Of a DNA stretch of 21,299 bases, positions 2,928 to 13,430 are shown in pieces. The notes below the pieces were generated by a model. The model saw nothing but the letters and a program-made list of their open reading frames with translations, was not told where the DNA came from and ran no database searches. Numbering within the stretch: the first letter of the stretch is position 1; each line of letters begins with the position of its first letter. The DNA comes from a virus. Location: IMG/VR virus record IMGVR_UViG_3300025316_000079, positions 1 through 21,299 of that record. One strand, 5' to 3'. A program made the translations under genes and the position numbers.

Positions 2928-4468
2928 CCACCACTTTTCAGGCCGCCGATCTCTTCTGCGGCGCCGGAGGCACGAGCACCGGATTATTACTTGCCGCGCG
3001 CGAACTGGGGATGGACGTGCGGTTGTTCGCTGTCAATCACTGGCAGACGGCCATTGTGACGCATCAGTTGAACCACCCAGGGGTGCAGCATCTGTGGGCA
3101 GACATCGAAGCGCTGAATCCGCGCGAGGTCGTGCCGGGTGGCAAGTTGAGACTATTGGTTGCTTCACCGGAGTGCATCTTCTTCAGTTCCGCGCGCGGTG
3201 GTAAGCCGATCAACGATCAGCGCAGAAGCTCGGCTTCTTACGTGTTGGATTGGGCACGGCAATTGGATATTGAGGAATTGCTGATTGAGAATGTGAAAGA
3301 GTTCGAGCGCTGGGGACCGATTTACCCTGACGATTATCCGGTGAAGAAACTGCGTCTGCGGCCTATCCCGGAACGCGCCGGCGAACACTTTCAGCAGTTC
3401 GTCGCCGATCTGCGCGCGCTGGGCTATACCGTGCACTGGCGCGTGCTGTGCGCAGCGGATTATGGGGATGCGACCAGTCGGCAACGGCTGTTCATTCGCG
3501 CCAGTAAGCGCGGTTTCGTTCGCTGGCCACTCCCGACGCACAGCCGCTCGCAGTGGCGGCCGGCGCGGGAGATCATCGATTGGAATATGCCGGGAAAAAG
3601 CATCTACGGACGCTCGAAGCCGCTTTGTCCAGCGACGATGAAGCGCATTATGGCGGGATTGGAGAAATTCAGCGGCCTTGCGCCATACCTGGTGGAATAT
3701 CACGGCGATCATTCCGGCACATCGAGCGGCGACCGGCGCACGCGATCGATTGACGAACCGTTAGCGACGGCAGACACCTCCAATCGATTCGCGTTGGCAC
3801 AGCCGGCGCTGGTGGTCTTTCGCAACCATGCCGACGCGCTGCCGGTCGATAAACCACTGCCGGCTATTTGCGCGGAAGGTCAGCATCTCGGCCTGATGCA
3901 GCCGTACCTTTCGAAGCTCTACGGCGGGCATGATGCCTGTTCGGTTGATGAGCCATTACCTACGGTCACCGCGAACTTTCAGCATTACGGTCTGGTACAG
4001 CCCTTTCTGATCAACCAGAAAGGGAAATCGACGGCGGCAACAATCTCGCTGCCATTGCCGACCCAGACCGCGCATGCTCTTCACCTGGCGGTTCCTTCTC
4101 CTTTTCTGACGAAATATTACGCGACCGGCACCGCGCAATCCATCGATGCGCCGCTGGATACAATCACGACCGTTGATCGCTTCGGGCTGGTACATCCACA
4201 AGTCGGCATGGGCGAGCATTTGCTACGCGCACTGAACGATCCGGACGAACTTTACCGTCCACGAATGGTCGAGCTCGAAGGCGTCACGTATCTGATCGAT
4301 ATTCTCTATCGGATGCTATATCCCGGTGAGTTAGGCGCCGCGATGTCGTTTCCAAAGAATTACGCCTTCACCGGCACGCAGGCTGATCAGGTGAAGCAGG
4401 TCGGCAATTCCGTGCCGGTGGAACTGGCGAAACAACTCTGCTTGTCCATTCTGGCAGGAGCGCGGTAA
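2924..4468 (+). CDS. DNA (cytosine-5-)-methyltransferase with repeat-rich variable region
   Basis: This enzyme transfers a methyl group from S-adenosylmethionine to C5 of cytosine in a specific DNA sequence, probably protecting phage DNA from restriction. Motif I is AADLFCGAGG (about residues 7-16). Motif IV is SPEC with the catalytic Cys84, in the SPEC form common in phage enzymes instead of PPCQ. Motif VI is ENV at 122-124, motif VIII is SRQRLF around 185-190, and motif X is QVGNSVPVELA near the C-terminus. Between motifs VIII and X (about residues 250-425) lie about five diverged tandem repeats of 31-39 residues, each with an aromatic 'P-[YF]-L-x-x-Y-x-G' part and a '[SI]-[VI]-D-x-P-L-x-T' part. 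ATG 2924 forms an ATGA overlap with the ASCH gene and is preferred to the TTG at 2900. No cognate restriction enzyme is visible. Confidence 0.92.
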   Translation: MTTTFQAADLFCGAGGTSTGLLLAARELGMDVRLFAVNHWQTAIVTHQLNHPGVQHLWADIEALNPREVVPGGKLRLLVASPECIFFSSARGGKPINDQRRSSASYVLDWARQLDIEELLIENVKEFERWGPIYPDDYPVKKLRLRPIPERAGEHFQQFVADLRALGYTVHWRVLCAADYGDATSRQRLFIRASKRGFVRWPLPTHSRSQWRPAREIIDWNMPGKSIYGRSKPLCPATMKRIMAGLEKFSGLAPYLVEYHGDHSGTSSGDRRTRSIDEPLATADTSNRFALAQPALVVFRNHADALPVDKPLPAICAEGQHLGLMQPYLSKLYGGHDACSVDEPLPTVTANFQHYGLVQPFLINQKGKSTAATISLPLPTQTAHALHLAVPSPFLTKYYATGTAQSIDAPLDTITTVDRFGLVHPQVGMGEHLLRALNDPDELYRPRMVELEGVTYLIDILYRMLYPGELGAAMSFPKNYAFTGTQADQVKQVGNSVPVELAKQLCLSILAGAR

Positions 4469-4737
4469 TGCACTACCATGTCATCGTCTACAACAAGCGC
4501 CGGGAGCCGACCTGGCTGTACGACAACTTCCTCGACGGCCTGATCCCATCGGAGACGCTGGAACTGATGCGCTGCCACGGAGCGCTGTGCAGCCCGACCA
4601 TCCACGATCGCGGTCTCTGCGAGCACTGCACGATGGACACCCACTGCCACATTATCGATCCGAGCGGACGAAAATACTGCCCAGTGTTGTTTCACGACGC
4701 GGTGAAGCCGCCGTGGCGTTTAGAGGATTTAGTATGA
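4468..4737 (+). CDS. Small Cys/His-rich phage protein, 89 aa
   Basis: Not recognised as a named family. The N-terminal third reads as a beta strand plus an amphipathic helix (HYHVIVYNKRREPTWLYDNF). The C-terminal half has many cysteines and histidines (RCHGALC, LCEHC, THCHII, KYCPVLFHD), suggesting one or two bound metal ions. Its ATG shares one base with the TAA of the methyltransferase gene, so translation is coupled. It could be a small partner of the methyltransferase or an independent host-interaction protein; the sequence does not say which. Confidence 0.65.
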   Translation: MHYHVIVYNKRREPTWLYDNFLDGLIPSETLELMRCHGALCSPTIHDRGLCEHCTMDTHCHIIDPSGRKYCPVLFHDAVKPPWRLEDLV

Positions 4738-4772
4738 ACCGGAGCGCGACCGCGCAAGGACATCTGTTTTGA
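4734..4772 (+). CDS. 12-codon ORF ending in a clamp-binding-like QGHLF
   Basis: The ORF encodes MNRSATAQGHLF. It starts with an ATGA overlap on the upstream stop and has AGAGGA at 4722-4727, six bases before the ATG, which is a good ribosome binding site. Its last five residues, QGHLF, fit the loose bacterial sliding-clamp-binding pattern Q-x-x-L-F. It could be a real micropeptide, a leader peptide, or the stub of a gene whose remainder was replaced by the non-coding control region that begins immediately afterwards. The evidence for translation is positional only. Confidence 0.35.
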   Translation: MNRSATAQGHLF

Positions 4773-4775
4773 CCG

Positions 4776-4951
4776 CTTATCGTATCGATAAGCCATTTGG
4801 TCTGTGTCTTATAGAGGTGATAAGCCGCAAAAAATCGGCTTATCACCTCTATAAGCCGATGGGATTCTCCCTTATCGATACGATAAGGCATGAAGCATGC
4901 TCCTTATCACCTCTATAAAGCACACGCAAACATCCTTATAGAGGTGATAAG
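4776..4951. promoter_or_regulatory. Array of six phased 17-bp inverted-repeat sites (CTTAT-N7-ATAAG)
   Basis: Six sites begin at 4776, 4808, 4839, 4871, 4903 and 4935, so centre-to-centre steps are 32, 31, 32, 32 and 32 bp, about three helical turns. Two spacer classes occur. Class A is CTTATCGTATCGATAAG (4776 forward, 4871 reverse). Class B is CTTATAGAGGTGATAAG (4808 and 4935 forward; 4839 and 4903 reverse; the 4903 copy ends in A instead of G). The 14-15 bp between sites are not conserved. This is what a cooperative dimeric DNA-binding protein would need: a repressor operator cluster, a partition centromere, or an initiator-binding array. No candidate binding protein is encoded in the window. 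Confidence 0.85.
4808..4855. repeat. 20-bp perfect inverted repeat with 8-nt loop
   Basis: Bases 4808-4827 and 4836-4855 are exact reverse complements, separated by CAAAAAAT. The repeat is formed by sites 2 and 3 of the phased array plus the conserved CCG/CGG next to them. As RNA it would make a very stable hairpin. On the minus strand the loop gives a U-rich stretch, but there is no T tract after the stem on the + strand, so it is not a typical terminator. Opposed binding sites explain it at least as well. Confidence 0.75.
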
Positions 4952-5004
4952 CGGATGAAAAAACGCGTAACATGACGAAAAAGAGACATTACCATTTTAC
5001 TCAT

Positions 5005-5240
5005 GTGCTGGATGTGCTGAAAATCAGCACTTGCGAAACCTGGTAATTGTTTTTGTTATCTTTGACATTTTGAGCGTAAATTTACGGTCTTTGGTGTACC
5101 AAAAGCAGATACAGCAGATACAGCACATCGTTATAAAAGATTTCCGTCAGTATAAGAGACACCAAAAGCAGAAGACCAAAAGACCAGAAGTAGCTACTAA
5201 GAGAATTATCTGCTGTACGTGCTGTACGTGCTGAAAATCA
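5005..5240. repeat. Iteron-like short repeats in AT-rich non-coding DNA
   Basis: The rest of the 4773-5252 gap has no convincing gene. It holds 9-bp units: TGCTGTACG twice in tandem at 5211-5228, then TGCTGAAAATCA at 5229-5240. The block TGCTGGATG plus TGCTGAAAATCA occurs at 5006-5026. Inverted copies GCAGATACA are tandem at 5105-5122. A second family, ACCAAAAGCAGA, is at 5098-5109 and 5161-5172, with ACCAAAAGACC at 5175. The 5014-5030 copy also forms a 7-bp hairpin with an AAA loop. A weak promoter-like pair (TTGCGA 5031, TGTTAT 5054, 17-bp spacing) is present. Short repeats in AT-rich DNA between operons suggest a replication origin or operator region; this is inference. Confidence 0.6.
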
Positions 5241-5252
5241 AAGGAGACATCG

Positions 5253-5675
5253 ATGCTAACCTTCACGATTCCCGGACATCCCGCAGGCAAAGGACGCCCC
5301 AGAGCCGCCATCGGCTCCGGGGGACATGCGACGGTCTATACCGATGCGCGCACGGTGACCGAGGAGTGGAATTTTCTGGCGCTGGCTCGACCGTATCTGC
5401 CGAAGGTGCCCTTCTCGGGTATCCTGCGGCTGGAGATTATCGCGGTATTGCTGATGCCGAAGTCCAGCGCGGTCAAACGCGCGGCGATGCTGGCCGGTGC
5501 CATTCGACCGACGCGCAAGCCGGACACGGACAATCTGGCGAAGCTGGTGATGGACGCAATGAACGGACGGTTTTACCTGGACGACAGCCAGGTCGTGGAA
5601 TTGCTGGTCAGCAAGGTTTATGGGGAAGCTCCGAGCGTCACCGTCAGTCTCTTCCCGCTCGATGGTATACTATAA
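5253..5675 (+). CDS. rusA: RusA family Holliday junction resolvase
   Basis: RusA proteins are small dimeric endonucleases that resolve Holliday junctions and are typical of lambdoid and other phages. The N-terminus TIPGHPAGKGRPRA matches the family's 'P-x-x-K-x-R-P-R' opening. The active-site block KPDTDNLAK places Asp91 and Asp93 with Lys97, and the LDDSQV segment supplies Asp110/Asp111; the pattern KPDxDNLxK...DA-x-x-G...DDxQV is diagnostic. Length (140 aa) is normal. An AAAGGAG lies 8 bases before the ATG. The gene stands alone after the AT-rich control region, so it may be the first gene of the downstream transcript. It would act with, or instead of, the RuvC-like enzyme encoded at 604. 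Confidence 0.92.
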   Translation: MLTFTIPGHPAGKGRPRAAIGSGGHATVYTDARTVTEEWNFLALARPYLPKVPFSGILRLEIIAVLLMPKSSAVKRAAMLAGAIRPTRKPDTDNLAKLVMDAMNGRFYLDDSQVVELLVSKVYGEAPSVTVSLFPLDGIL

Positions 5676-5777
5676 ATCAGCCGGCATAAATGCGCCATAA
5701 GGGTGAGCCATTTTTCAAGTTAGGCTCATGCAGACGCAACATGGAAAACGCAGCACTGGACAGAGGAGGATCATACG

Positions 5778-6374
5778 ATGAATTACGGACACGTCGAAGC
5801 GCTATTAACGCTCTACTTTCACGATATACCGCATCTTCGGAAGTTGGCGGAGATCGACCTGACGGCCTGCCGCCGGCGGCTGGAGCGGATTCGCGGGGAA
5901 GGCGTCTATCCGTCCTCCGGCGTGATGCGTTATGATGCGCCCTCCGCGCGTGGGAAAAGCGGCAGCATCCCCGACCCGGTGGAACGGACCGCCGCGCGAT
6001 CGGAGCGGACGGAGTATCTGGCCGTGCTCCAGGCGGAAGAGCGTAACGAAGCATTCTACGCCGGCATCATTGAGGAGTATTCCTATATCGAGGAACGGCT
6101 ACAGATCGTGTTGGGGCTGCTGCCGGCTGATCATCAGGAGGCCATTCGGCGGCGGTTCGCGCAGCGCTGTTCCTATAACGACGTGGGCGCGAATGTCGTC
6201 GCCTCTTCGCTGCGCAAGGCGCTGCAGCAGGACTACGCGCTGATCGCCGATAACCTGTTCTGTCAAATCAGTGCCGAATTGTTGCCGTATTGCGCCCAAA
6301 AACATGCCGGTATTTTCCCGGTTCGTTGCCGGAAGCGCACCTATTTCCGGCGCTCGGAACTGGTAACCTGTTAA
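5778..6374 (+). CDS. Putative late-gene transcription regulator (sigma region 4/ArpU-RinA-like)
   Basis: The 198-aa product has a coiled, charged N-terminal half. Residues about 105-160 (YIEERLQIVLGLLPADHQEA, then IRRRFAQRCSYNDVGANVVA and SSLRKALQQDYALI) read like a sigma-70 region 4 type helix-turn-helix: 'L-x-x-L-P-x-x-x-R-x-x-I...R-F...S-Y-x-x-V/I-A...S...R-K-A'. ArpU, RinA and related phage late activators have this form and sit just upstream of the small terminase gene, as here. The last 25 residues are Cys/Arg-rich and unusual. GAGGAGG lies upstream of the ATG. The regulatory role is inferred from the fold pattern and position; a structural role cannot be excluded. Confidence 0.5.
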   Translation: MNYGHVEALLTLYFHDIPHLRKLAEIDLTACRRRLERIRGEGVYPSSGVMRYDAPSARGKSGSIPDPVERTAARSERTEYLAVLQAEERNEAFYAGIIEEYSYIEERLQIVLGLLPADHQEAIRRRFAQRCSYNDVGANVVASSLRKALQQDYALIADNLFCQISAELLPYCAQKHAGIFPVRCRKRTYFRRSELVTC

Positions 6375-6433: not shown

Positions 6434-6515
6434 TCCCGCGCGGCGCCGGTGATTCTCCTTTGGCAGCAGCGTTCTCGGCTTATACGGCAGTCCCGGTGTC
6501 CGGCGCCGCGCGGGA
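6434..6515. repeat. 16-bp perfect GC-rich inverted repeat upstream of the terminase genes
   Basis: TCCCGCGCGGCGCCGG at 6434-6449 is the exact reverse complement of 6500-6515. The arms are 50 bp apart, and the arm itself contains the palindrome GGCGCC. With the preceding stem-loop it fills the gene-free stretch 6375-6540, upstream of the small terminase gene where cos or pac sites are often found. It could be a binding site for the small terminase, a site for a dimeric regulator, or a structured leader RNA. Confidence 0.6.
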
Positions 6516-6675: not shown

Positions 6676-6859
6676 GAGAGACCCGACCGCGAATGAAGCC
6701 ATCAGACGCGTGCTGCGGGAGCAGCGGGACTTCGAATACTTTCTGGTAGCCGCTTATGACCGCCAAACTCACCGAGAAACAACAACGATTCGTCGACGCG
6801 TACCTGGTAGATCTGAACGCAACGCACGCCTACCAGGATGCGTATCAACAACAGGATAA
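6668..6859 (+). CDS. Possible small ORF overlapping the small terminase gene, 63 aa
   Basis: GAGGGA stands six to seven bases before the ATG, a better ribosome binding site than that of the small terminase gene itself. The first 35 residues (NEAIRRVLREQRDFEYFLVA near the start) look like a genuine amphipathic helix. The rest, which overlaps the terminase gene by 104 bp, is Arg/Thr-rich and looks like out-of-frame sequence. It may serve to deliver ribosomes to the terminase start at 6756 by translational coupling, or it may be the remnant of a small gene. No family is recognised. Confidence 0.33.
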   Translation: MCRRDPTANEAIRRVLREQRDFEYFLVAAYDRQTHRETTTIRRRVPGRSERNARLPGCVSTTG

Positions 6860-7358
6860 ACTACCGATCAGCGAGACGGTTGCCGCGGCTGGCGGCGCGC
6901 GCCTGTTAAGAATTGTTAAGGTTCAGCAGGCGATTCAATCCGCCCAGGATGAGCGCTCCAAACGTACTGAAATAACAGTTGATAATGTTCTTCGTGAGCT
7001 TGCCCTACTCGGATTCTCCGATCTTCGCAACTATGTAATCACTGACGACGGTTCACTCACACTTGTTCCCGGTGCGCCCGACGCGGCGATGCGCGCGGTC
7101 TCCTCGGTCAAGCGCAAGCGGCGCACGATCCCCCGCAAGGACGACGAGCCGATTGTCGAGGTCGAAGTCGAATTCCGCCTGTGGAGTAAGCCCGACGCCT
7201 TGACGTTGCTAGCCAAGCATCTGGGGATGATTACCGAGAAGCGCGAATTATCCGGGAAGCTGGAGGTGCAGTCGTTCGCGGACTTGATGAGGCAGGCGAT
7301 GGCGCATGACGACACTGATACCGATCGAGCTGGAGGGGATACGACGCAGCCGGCGTGA
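6756..7358 (+). CDS. terS: Terminase small subunit
   Basis: The small terminase binds the packaging site on concatemeric phage DNA and recruits the large subunit. The N-terminus LTEKQQRFVDAYLVDLNATH is the classic opening of the terminase_2/XtmA family helix-turn-helix domain. The following helix ends in RLLRIVKVQQAI, where many members have 'LLxNPKVxxxI'. Then come TEITVDNVLRELALLGFSDL and a C-terminal region with WSKPDALTLLAKHLGM, also typical. Length (200 aa) is slightly above the family norm. The start has only a weak ribosome binding site, and the 3' end overlaps the large subunit gene by 53 bp. Confidence 0.93.
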   Translation: MTAKLTEKQQRFVDAYLVDLNATHAYQDAYQQQDKLPISETVAAAGGARLLRIVKVQQAIQSAQDERSKRTEITVDNVLRELALLGFSDLRNYVITDDGSLTLVPGAPDAAMRAVSSVKRKRRTIPRKDDEPIVEVEVEFRLWSKPDALTLLAKHLGMITEKRELSGKLEVQSFADLMRQAMAHDDTDTDRAGGDTTQPA

Positions 7359-8697
7359 TCCGGTCTGGTTCGTGCGCCACGTGCTGACGGTCGATCCGTG
7401 GGCGAAGCAGGAAGCGGTGCTGCGGGCGGTGCGCGACTATCGCCGCACGGCGGTGCGCTCCTGTCACGGGATAGGCAAGACGCGCGTGGCGGCCTGGGTG
7501 GCGCTGTGGTTTTTGCTGACGCACCCGGATAGCCTGGTGGTGACCACCGCGCCGACGTGGCACCAGGTGGAACACTTGCTCTGGCGCGAGATTCGCGCGG
7601 CACACGTGTTATCCGCCTATCCGCTGGGCAGCAAGCCGCTAAAGACGGAATACACGCTCTCCGAGCAGTGGTACGCGCTGGGGCTATCCACCAATGAACC
7701 GGAGCGCTTTCAAGGGTTCCATGCCGCGAGCGGCGATATTCTGCTGATCTGCGACGAAGCCAGCGGCATCGAGCAAACGATCTTCGACGCGGCGGAAGGC
7801 TTTCTCACTTCGGACGGCGCGCGGTTGCTGCTGATCGGCAACCCGACGCAGTTGTCCGGTGAGTTCTACACCGCCTTTCGCTCCCCGCTCTATCACAAAA
7901 TTCATATCAGTGCCTTCGACTCGCCCAACCTGCGGGCCGGCGCGGTGGTGCGCCCCTATCTGATCACGCCGGCGTGGGTGGAGGAGAAACGCATCAAGTG
8001 GGGCGAGGATTCCCCGCTTTGGTCGGCGCGCGTACTCGGTGAATTTCCGACACAAGGCGACGACACGCTGATTTCATTGGCATGGGTCGAGGCGGCGCAG
8101 GCGCGCTATGCGGAGACGTTGCCCGGCGCGCCGGTGGAGTTAGGCGTTGACGTGGCGCGCTTCGGCAGCGACAAGTCGGTGTTGATCCTGCGGCGCGGTC
8201 CACGGGTGACCATCTATCAGGTGATTGCGAAGAGCGACTTGATGGCGCTGTGCGGGGCAGTGATTCACGCGCTGGGCGAGACCGGCGCCACCATGGTGAA
8301 GGTGGATGTGATCGGCGTCGGCGCCGGCGTCTACGACCGCTGTCGCGAACAGGGAAAGCCGGTGGCGCCGATCAATGTGGCGGAAGCACCGCGGGACACC
8401 GAGCGCTTTGCCAATCTCCGCGCGGAGCTGTATTGGAACCTGCGCGAGCTGCTGCGCGACGGGCAGATGGCGCTGCCCCCCGATGACGACCTGGCCGGGC
8501 AACTGGCCAGCATCAAATACAAGTTCGACAGCCGCGGGCGCATTCTGATCGAGTCCAAGGAGGATATGCGCAAGCGCGGGCTGTCCAGTCCGGACCACGC
8601 CGACGCGCTGGCGCTGGCCTTTGCGCCGGAACCGGCCTCCTCCGCGGTGATGGTCGGCGGGGCGCGCACCGAGGTACAGACGTATCGCGCACGATAG
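7306..8697 (+). CDS. terL: Terminase large subunit (ATPase/nuclease)
   Basis: This is the motor that cuts concatemers and pumps DNA into the prohead. The N-terminal ATPase has a Walker A-like SCHGIGKT (residues 52-59, with Lys58) and a Walker B ILLICDE ending in Asp150-Glu151, followed by the IGNPTQLSGEFY coupling motif at about 178-189. The C-terminal RNase H-fold nuclease shows VDVARFGSDKS (Asp282), KVDVIGVGAGVYD (Asp334) and SSPDHADALALAFA (Asp430/Asp433). Length (463 aa) is normal. Translation starts inside the small subunit gene, and the gene ends with two consecutive TAG codons. The portal gene follows 11 bp later. Confidence 0.96.
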   Translation: MTTLIPIELEGIRRSRRDPVWFVRHVLTVDPWAKQEAVLRAVRDYRRTAVRSCHGIGKTRVAAWVALWFLLTHPDSLVVTTAPTWHQVEHLLWREIRAAHVLSAYPLGSKPLKTEYTLSEQWYALGLSTNEPERFQGFHAASGDILLICDEASGIEQTIFDAAEGFLTSDGARLLLIGNPTQLSGEFYTAFRSPLYHKIHISAFDSPNLRAGAVVRPYLITPAWVEEKRIKWGEDSPLWSARVLGEFPTQGDDTLISLAWVEAAQARYAETLPGAPVELGVDVARFGSDKSVLILRRGPRVTIYQVIAKSDLMALCGAVIHALGETGATMVKVDVIGVGAGVYDRCREQGKPVAPINVAEAPRDTERFANLRAELYWNLRELLRDGQMALPPDDDLAGQLASIKYKFDSRGRILIESKEDMRKRGLSSPDHADALALAFAPEPASSAVMVGGARTEVQTYRAR

Positions 8698-12188: not shown

Positions 12189-13430
12189 ATGACCGACTCC
12201 ATGAGCCACAATGATCGTAAAAGCGCCGTGTGCGCCGCGCTGGGCTGCCAGGACTGGCACGTGCAGGACATGTTTGACGACAAGGTGGTCCATCGGATGC
12301 CGAAGCCGGGCGGGAAGGATTATGAGGACGACGGCAAGCTCTACCAGACGCCGTATACCGTCGGCGATGACGGCAAGGTGTCATTGGGGCAACGCGAGGA
12401 AGTGCAGCGCCGCACCGTCTATGACCCGGTGAAGCAGTTCAGCGTGGACTTTTCCGTCGGCACGCCCCAGGGCGACCTGGTGCCGTATGTCGGCAAGGCG
12501 TTCGAAGTGGGTGATTATCCCGACAAGGGCTTCTCCATCACCGAGGCCGAAGTCGACGCGGCAATTATCGCCTTTACCCCGGTGCCGAACGATCTGGAGC
12601 ATCACGCCACCATGTTCGACGGCAAGCTGGGGGAACTGACGCGGCTGTGGCGCGACGGCAAAGATGTCTACGCGGAAACGCTGATTCCCGCCTGGGCGCG
12701 CGGCGTGCTGGGCGATACCCTGAAAACCTCCCTGGCGTGGGCGCGCGACACCAAGCGGGTGATCGGCAACGCGCTCACCACCCATCCGCGCGTATTGGAC
12801 GCGCAATTGCAAGCCGCTTTCACCGCGGCGAATTCGACAGCGAAAGGAGACCAACCCATGACACTCAAAGACCGTGTCCTGGCCCTGTTCGCCGGCGGAA
12901 AGAAGCCCGAAGACATCCTGGAGGATGAACTGAAGGCGGCGTTTGCCGACGACACGAAAGACTGCCCGAAATGCAAAGGCACCGGAAAAGTGCCGGCAGA
13001 GATGTCCGACACGCCCCAGCCGCCGGCCCCCGACCCGGCAACGGTGCACCTGTCCGCGACCAATGCCGCGCTCACCGAACGGATGCTGACGCAGGAAGCG
13101 GAAGCCTGGTTCACCACGCAGTTGCGCGCCGGCAAAGTGTTACCCGCGCAACATGACGCGCTGACGGCGCTGTTCTGCCAGGCAGCGAAAGCCGACAACA
13201 ACGGCGCGGTGACCTTCACCGCCGCCGGCGCCTTGCAGACCGGCGCGCAGATGAAAGCGCTCACCGACGCGATTGCCGCCGCGCCCGATCTGACCCCGTT
13301 CTTCAGCGAGGCGATCAGCAATGTGGCCGGCGATCAGATTGTCACGTTATCCAGCACCGGCGGCAATCAGCCGAGTGACGCGCGCATGAAGTCGCTCCGC
13401 GCGATGGCCGGGCTGAAGAGCGCGAACTAA
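12189..13430 (+). CDS. Mu gpI-like prohead protease/scaffold precursor
   Basis: The N-terminal 210 residues resemble the Mu gpI family of head maturation proteases: SAVCAALGCQDWHVQDMFDD at the start, then LYQTPYTVGDDGKVSLG, IAFTPVPNDLEHH, FDGKLGELTRLW and YAETLIPAWARGVL. The C-terminal part is the alanine-rich scaffold region that shapes the prohead and is then degraded. A single CPKCKGTGK zinc-knuckle-like motif (about residues 258-266) sits at the junction and is unusual. GAGGTGA lies five bases before the ATG. An internal in-frame start at 12858 probably yields a separate scaffold protein. Position before the decoration and capsid genes is canonical. Confidence 0.85.
   Translation: MTDSMSHNDRKSAVCAALGCQDWHVQDMFDDKVVHRMPKPGGKDYEDDGKLYQTPYTVGDDGKVSLGQREEVQRRTVYDPVKQFSVDFSVGTPQGDLVPYVGKAFEVGDYPDKGFSITEAEVDAAIIAFTPVPNDLEHHATMFDGKLGELTRLWRDGKDVYAETLIPAWARGVLGDTLKTSLAWARDTKRVIGNALTTHPRVLDAQLQAAFTAANSTAKGDQPMTLKDRVLALFAGGKKPEDILEDELKAAFADDTKDCPKCKGTGKVPAEMSDTPQPPAPDPATVHLSATNAALTERMLTQEAEAWFTTQLRAGKVLPAQHDALTALFCQAAKADNNGAVTFTAAGALQTGAQMKALTDAIAAAPDLTPFFSEAISNVAGDQIVTLSSTGGNQPSDARMKSLRAMAGLKSAN
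12858..13430 (+). CDS. Internal in-frame start: predicted scaffold protein, 190 aa
   Basis: Codon 224 of the protease gene is an ATG preceded by a strong AAAGGAG with eight bases between GGAG and ATG, far better than chance inside a coding region. The product would begin MTLKDRVLALFAGGKKPEDI and contain the alanine/glutamine-rich helical scaffold part. Mu (I/Z) and lambda (C/Nu3) make their scaffolds in exactly this nested way, so the prediction follows an established pattern. The ratio of the two products would be set by the two ribosome binding sites. Confidence 0.7.
   Translation: MTLKDRVLALFAGGKKPEDILEDELKAAFADDTKDCPKCKGTGKVPAEMSDTPQPPAPDPATVHLSATNAALTERMLTQEAEAWFTTQLRAGKVLPAQHDALTALFCQAAKADNNGAVTFTAAGALQTGAQMKALTDAIAAAPDLTPFFSEAISNVAGDQIVTLSSTGGNQPSDARMKSLRAMAGLKSAN

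Follow-up and report, generated by a model that had tools for sequence, protein, structure and literature searches.

Six phased inverted-repeat sites in an AT-rich gap upstream of rusA in a phage genome fragment: a possible origin or operator array

The gap and its neighbouring genes

The window, by which we mean the whole stretch of DNA that was analysed (21.3 kb), is a fragment of a virus of bacteria in which all assigned genes are co-directional. Upstream of the gap considered here lie a RuvC-like resolvase, an Ead/Ea22-like protein, a cytosine methylase and an orphan ORF, and downstream of it RusA, a weak sigma-like ORF, TerS, TerL, a Mu-type portal, head proteins, a glycosyltransferase and a tape-measure protein (Table 1). 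The predicted folds of two orphan proteins were unusable. Among the tested proteins of the 21.3-kb fragment we recognised no initiator-like gene, no parA/parB-type gene and no recombinase gene, and among the co-directional ORFs flanking the array no regulator gene. The fragment encodes two distinct Holliday-junction resolvases, a RuvC-like one at 604-1176 and the RusA-like one of Table 1. A 16-bp perfect inverted repeat, TCCCGCGCGGCGCCGG, stands 5' of terS at 6434-6449 and 6500-6515, its two copies 50 bp apart.

Table 1. Coordinates of the array, of the gap that holds it and of nearby or related features
Feature	Coordinates	Strand	Remarks
Orphan 89-aa ORF, upstream of gap	4468..4737	+	matches no family; fold predicted from single sequence is unreliable (pLDDT 43)
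Gap without credible gene	4738..5252		515 bp; apart from chance frames, only a pair of tiny ORFs (4955-5048)
Site 1, class A (7-3-7 palindrome)	4776..4792	+	CTTATCGTATCGATAAG
Site 2, class B forward	4808..4824	+	CTTATAGAGGTGATAAG
Site 3, class B reversed	4839..4855	-	CTTATCACCTCTATAAG on + strand
Site 4, class A reversed	4871..4887	-	CTTATCGATACGATAAG on + strand
Site 5, class B reversed, one mismatch	4903..4919	-	CTTATCACCTCTATAAA on + strand
Site 6, class B forward	4935..4951	+	CTTATAGAGGTGATAAG
AT-rich stretch adjoining array	4955..5252		38.6% GC; candidate unwinding region
Second repeat family, TGCTG/CAGCA words in GTGCTG-N3 runs	5005..5240		at 5005-5030, 5104-5128 and 5208-5240
RusA-like Holliday junction resolvase	5253..5675	+	Pfam PF05866, E 2.4e-25; first recognisable gene 3' of array
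ORF in position of sigma-like late regulator	5778..6374	+	sigma70-ECF sub-threshold, E 0.09; synteny with L178
Terminase small subunit (Terminase_2)	6756..7358	+	
Terminase large subunit	7306..8697	+	phrog_2, E 7e-45
Palindromic-repeat triplets before terS, in related loci	L033 9396-9440; L035 9396-9440; L178 18151-18195; L031 5111-5158; L034 3867-3916

The gap has a GC content of 41.9%, compared with 61.2% for the window and 58-63% for the other intergenic gaps longer than 200 bp. The thermally least stable stretches of 50, 100 and 150 bp in the window all start at 5035-5044, inside the AT-rich flank of the array, where the window-wide stability minimum spans 5035-5190, and the least stable 300 bp (4912-5211) likewise lie next to the array. 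The AT-rich part also carries a second repeat family that is independent of the six sites and counts eight TGCTG/CAGCA words, where shuffles average 0.78 and reach at most 6. Cumulative GC skew displays only a shallow local dip, with no clear switch.

Six sites in two classes on one face of the helix

The preliminary description reported six copies of the dyad CTTAT-N7-ATAAG; all six start positions are correct (Table 1), but only five of the copies are exact, the site at 4903 ending in ATAAA and thus departing from the pattern by one mismatch. Successive sites lie 32, 31, 32, 32 and 32 bp apart, at the near-constant period that had been claimed, which equals three helical turns, and their six centres do keep to one face of the helix, with a phase coherence R of 0.95 at 10.5 bp per turn and of 0.99 at 10.6. 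Under an ad hoc null in which steps are free between 22 and 47 bp, which is no formal test, the chance that all five steps measure 31-32 bp is about 3e-6. Five same-arm dyads are observed in the 515-bp gap, with two or fewer in every one of 2000 dinucleotide-preserving shuffles. When up to two mismatches are allowed across the whole 21.3-kb window, the sole extra match to CTTAT-N7-ATAAG is a 2-mismatch site at 5685, and the shuffles yield a mean of 2.2 matches and never seven. Isolated copies with fewer than two mismatches are absent from the rest of the fragment, so that the sites are confined to the gap and not scattered. The spacers of 14-15 bp are conserved not clearly above chance, in agreement with the earlier statement that the DNA between the sites is not conserved. 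The array is real, highly non-random and phased, an unusual version of a generally known type.

The 7-bp centres fall into the two classes first noticed, A (CGTATCG/CGATACG), found twice, and B (AGAGGTG/CACCTCT), found four times. Their order, A+ B+ B- A- B- B+, also stands; the class A site is a 7-3-7 palindrome, so that a single base, the central one, sets its sign. Read by class, the order is ABB-ABB with a superperiod of 95-96 bp, and the sign of every site is flipped in the second triad. One and the same B centre occurs four times, twice in reverse, so it is either constrained or the product of recent copying. A protein that reads the whole 17-bp site would explain the class-specific centres, and the two specificities suggested earlier are one possible reading of the two classes among others. 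It is rather improbable that one protein reads the constant 5-bp arms while the 7-bp centre serves as an address (A or B), with the two mirror-oriented triads building a higher-order complex.

Promoter scans of either strand detected no good or consensus promoter overlapping the sites and yielded weak candidates only. TTGACA at 5062 is paired with a weak -10 only, and a moderate leftward promoter-like site is present at 5023-4994. On the minus strand, positions 4834-4860 form a terminator-like hairpin followed by a T-run, which could end a short leftward transcript from 5023-4994. A sigma-54 enhancer, considered on account of the three-turn spacing, was rejected, there being no convincing -24/-12 site, and an Rfam search gave no match. 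The B+ centre contains GAGGTGAT, an 8-nt match to the Shine-Dalgarno sequence, of which B- carries the complement. At 4941-4948 this word stands 6 nt before ATG 4955, a placement that may be due to chance; the 6-codon ORF starting there (MKKRVT) overlaps a 24-codon ORF (4974-5048) by ATGA. The same word recurs just before the ORF at 12189.

Relatives of the phage and comparable arrays

No similar array turned up when 2.9 million viral contigs and some 85,000 species genomes were scanned. The site-pair pattern matched 24 times in the viral contigs, never at 31-32 bp and mostly in other repeats, and the exact B site matched nine times, as single copies outside arrays, most apparently within genes. 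The 28 matches to the GTGCTG motif were apparently coincidental and mostly coding. In the species genomes the 13 matches to the site pair were mostly genes, low-complexity repeats and single pairs, and included the Parabacteroides recombinase-type sites described below. A blastn search against annotated phages gave no match, and a homology-free dyad-array scan of 1.88 Mb of fetched DNA revealed nothing comparable except tandem repeats in marine phages.

Relatives were also sought by way of RusA, the upstream ORF, TerL, the methylase and TerS. TerL relatives at 67-71% came from viral contigs and from one genome belonging to the phylum of a Clostridiales MAG, which may point to a Bacillota host. 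In the viral TerL relatives no window protein other than TerL was matched, and in prophage loci with a related terL further similarity was weak and limited to TerS and portal. The L178 prophage, whose terL is the most similar, has in common with the window the order RusA, sigma-like ORF, TerS and TerL, and carries no array before rusA. Its immunity operators, TACCA-N3-TGGTA, are found 12 kb upstream of terL, flanked by divergent cI- and cro-like genes, while its DnaD-like, initiator-type gene contains short repeats. Several terL relatives have three palindromic repeats with a period of about 15 bp just 5' of terS, the sequence of which varies by phage (Table 1); these triplets are a candidate packaging or late-promoter element.

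What the array may bind

The strict phasing of the sites, combined with the freedom of the spacers, points to a DNA-binding protein rather than to an RNA or a duplicated block. We tentatively take the array to be a platform on which one dimeric phage protein binds cooperatively, and the likeliest role of such a platform is to assemble the initiator at a replication origin; protein binding, its cooperativity and a role in replication are all inferred from the arrangement of the DNA. A dimeric phage protein would load side by side on the six 17-bp dyads, along one helix face at three turns per step, and the loaded dimers would form a nucleoprotein complex on the array. By analogy with lambda O at its inverted-repeat iterons, the assembled protein could then strain the DNA and open the adjoining AT-rich stretch at 4955-5252 for helicase loading. 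The absence of scattered copies, the common helical face and the free spacers all fit a phased, cooperative array confined to the gap; the filament or wrapping that the preliminary description proposed is conjectural.

An origin is preferred over a role in transcription because a stability minimum adjoins the array, a second repeat family accompanies it and no promoter was found to overlap it. Multiple binding-site-like repeats, six in number, and an adjacent AT-rich, easily melted stretch with its stability minimum at 5035-5190 are both present, as would be looked for in an origin, and the two Holliday-junction resolvases among the neighbouring genes count on the same side. Against an origin count the GC skew and the unusual spacing, the repeats of L178 inside its DnaD-like gene, where an origin would be expected, and the lack of a recognised initiator gene in the 21.3-kb fragment. 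The origin suggested at the outset is helped by the low-stability DNA. Iterons described in other systems are mostly direct repeats at a distance of about 20-22 bp and not mixed-orientation dyads at 32 bp, which likewise speaks against an origin, and since AT-rich DNA is common around promoters too, that part of the argument loses force. Lambdoid origins contain four to six copies of a 19-bp inverted-repeat iteron beside an AT-rich tract (PMC7466680). The array resembles them in its multiple inverted repeats next to AT-rich DNA, yet the lambda iterons lie inside the initiator gene, whereas the six sites occupy a gap with no credible gene, are 32 bp apart and have two classes of centre. The origin of the PLE satellite, with RepA_N iterons, is noncoding and combines several families of repeats with iterons that are semi-palindromic (PMC7145576). 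All three traits are shared by the array, which differs from it in sequence, in its mixed orientation and in having no RepA_N-like gene in the window.

Nearly as likely as an origin is an operator cluster, a possible reading in which a dimeric repressor or activator, cooperative on the six sites, would control the rusA, sigma-like ORF and terminase unit or a short leftward transcript. Seventeen-bp dyads on a single helix face suit a dimeric regulator, as do the clustered 17-bp dyads of the CI/Cro-type operators lambda OR/OL, likely bound by cooperative dimers. The gap precedes a co-directional gene unit, the TTGACA with its weak -10 is what an activator-dependent promoter might have, and the leftward promoter-like site together with the terminator-like hairpin (4860-4834) could delimit a transcript to be regulated. 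On the other hand, no consensus promoter overlaps the sites, the neighbouring genes all run in the same direction, and the immunity operators of L178 are elsewhere. Unlike lambda OR/OL, moreover, the array is not placed between divergent regulators, and it comprises six sites at three-turn spacing. Its position and the orientation of the genes speak against the repressor-cluster switch of the classical immunity type that was at first considered. As an origin, the array would be one that lies outside its initiator gene and consists of three-turn-phased palindromes in two classes; as an operator array, it would be a cooperative cluster of unusual regularity where the phage late genes begin. Either way it would offer a compact, testable model of how site spacing sets protein assembly.

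That the array is the centromere, or partition site, of a plasmid-like prophage and binds a ParB- or ParR-like protein is unlikely. Arrays of inverted-repeat sites are typical of such loci, for example parS of the F plasmid (sopC), where a 43-bp repeat containing 16-bp inverted motifs occurs twelve times in tandem (PMC6238139). F parS, however, repeats the whole 43-bp unit, whereas here only the 17-bp sites are kept; the window, a fragment, shows no parA or parB gene among its tested proteins, and its order of terS, terL, portal and capsid genes is ordinary for a temperate phage.

Slightly less credible still is a pac or cos array recognised by the small terminase in packaging. The array lies 2 kb upstream of terS, and in the terL relatives the palindromic triplets stand just before that gene. 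In six marine phage contigs (L005, L006, L011, L013, L014 and L018), moreover, GTCTTATATAAGAC dyad arrays precede a TerS-like gene (GRP...GRP) and terL by 0.5-0.9 kb. These belong to a separate phage group and turned up in a search with the same arm word, their spacing being variable (23, 30 or 46 bp), and in the window rusA and another ORF intervene between array and terS; the SF6 small terminase, furthermore, is little specific for pac repeats (PMC4737164).

Very improbable is an RNA device, in which B+ and B- transcripts would fold into hairpins that hide or free the ribosome site of the tiny ORFs at 4955-5048. The Shine-Dalgarno match before ATG 4955 and before the ORF at 12189 speaks for it, as does a fold z-score of -8, but the latter is low because inverted copies of the site are present, and the device would account neither for the dyad symmetry of the individual sites nor for the 31-32 bp step or class A.

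Least probable of all are tyrosine-recombinase sites, with the arms as half-sites and the 7-bp centre as an overlap required to match, giving two compatibility classes: this would likewise account for constant arms, class-specific centres and orientation flips, and the palindromic repeats of invertible promoters in Bacteroidales, GTTAC-GTAAC (PMC12118408), have 5-bp arms and a 7-bp centre as here, but those are inverted around a segment beside a recombinase-like gene, while the 14-15 bp between our sites leave no cargo to invert, no recombinase gene was recognised among the tested window proteins, and recombination does not need strict helical phasing. Also on the side of recombinase sites, in Parabacteroides (L112, L114 and L119), pairs of CTTATTTATG[A/G]AATAAG, with the same arm word and the CTTAT-N7-ATAAG layout, lie 30-31 bp apart beside a tyrosine-recombinase-like gene. 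Some of the pairs are in inverted orientation about 0.4-0.5 kb apart, two of them in L114 at a distance of about 0.5 kb, and these paired sites are candidate phase-variation switches.
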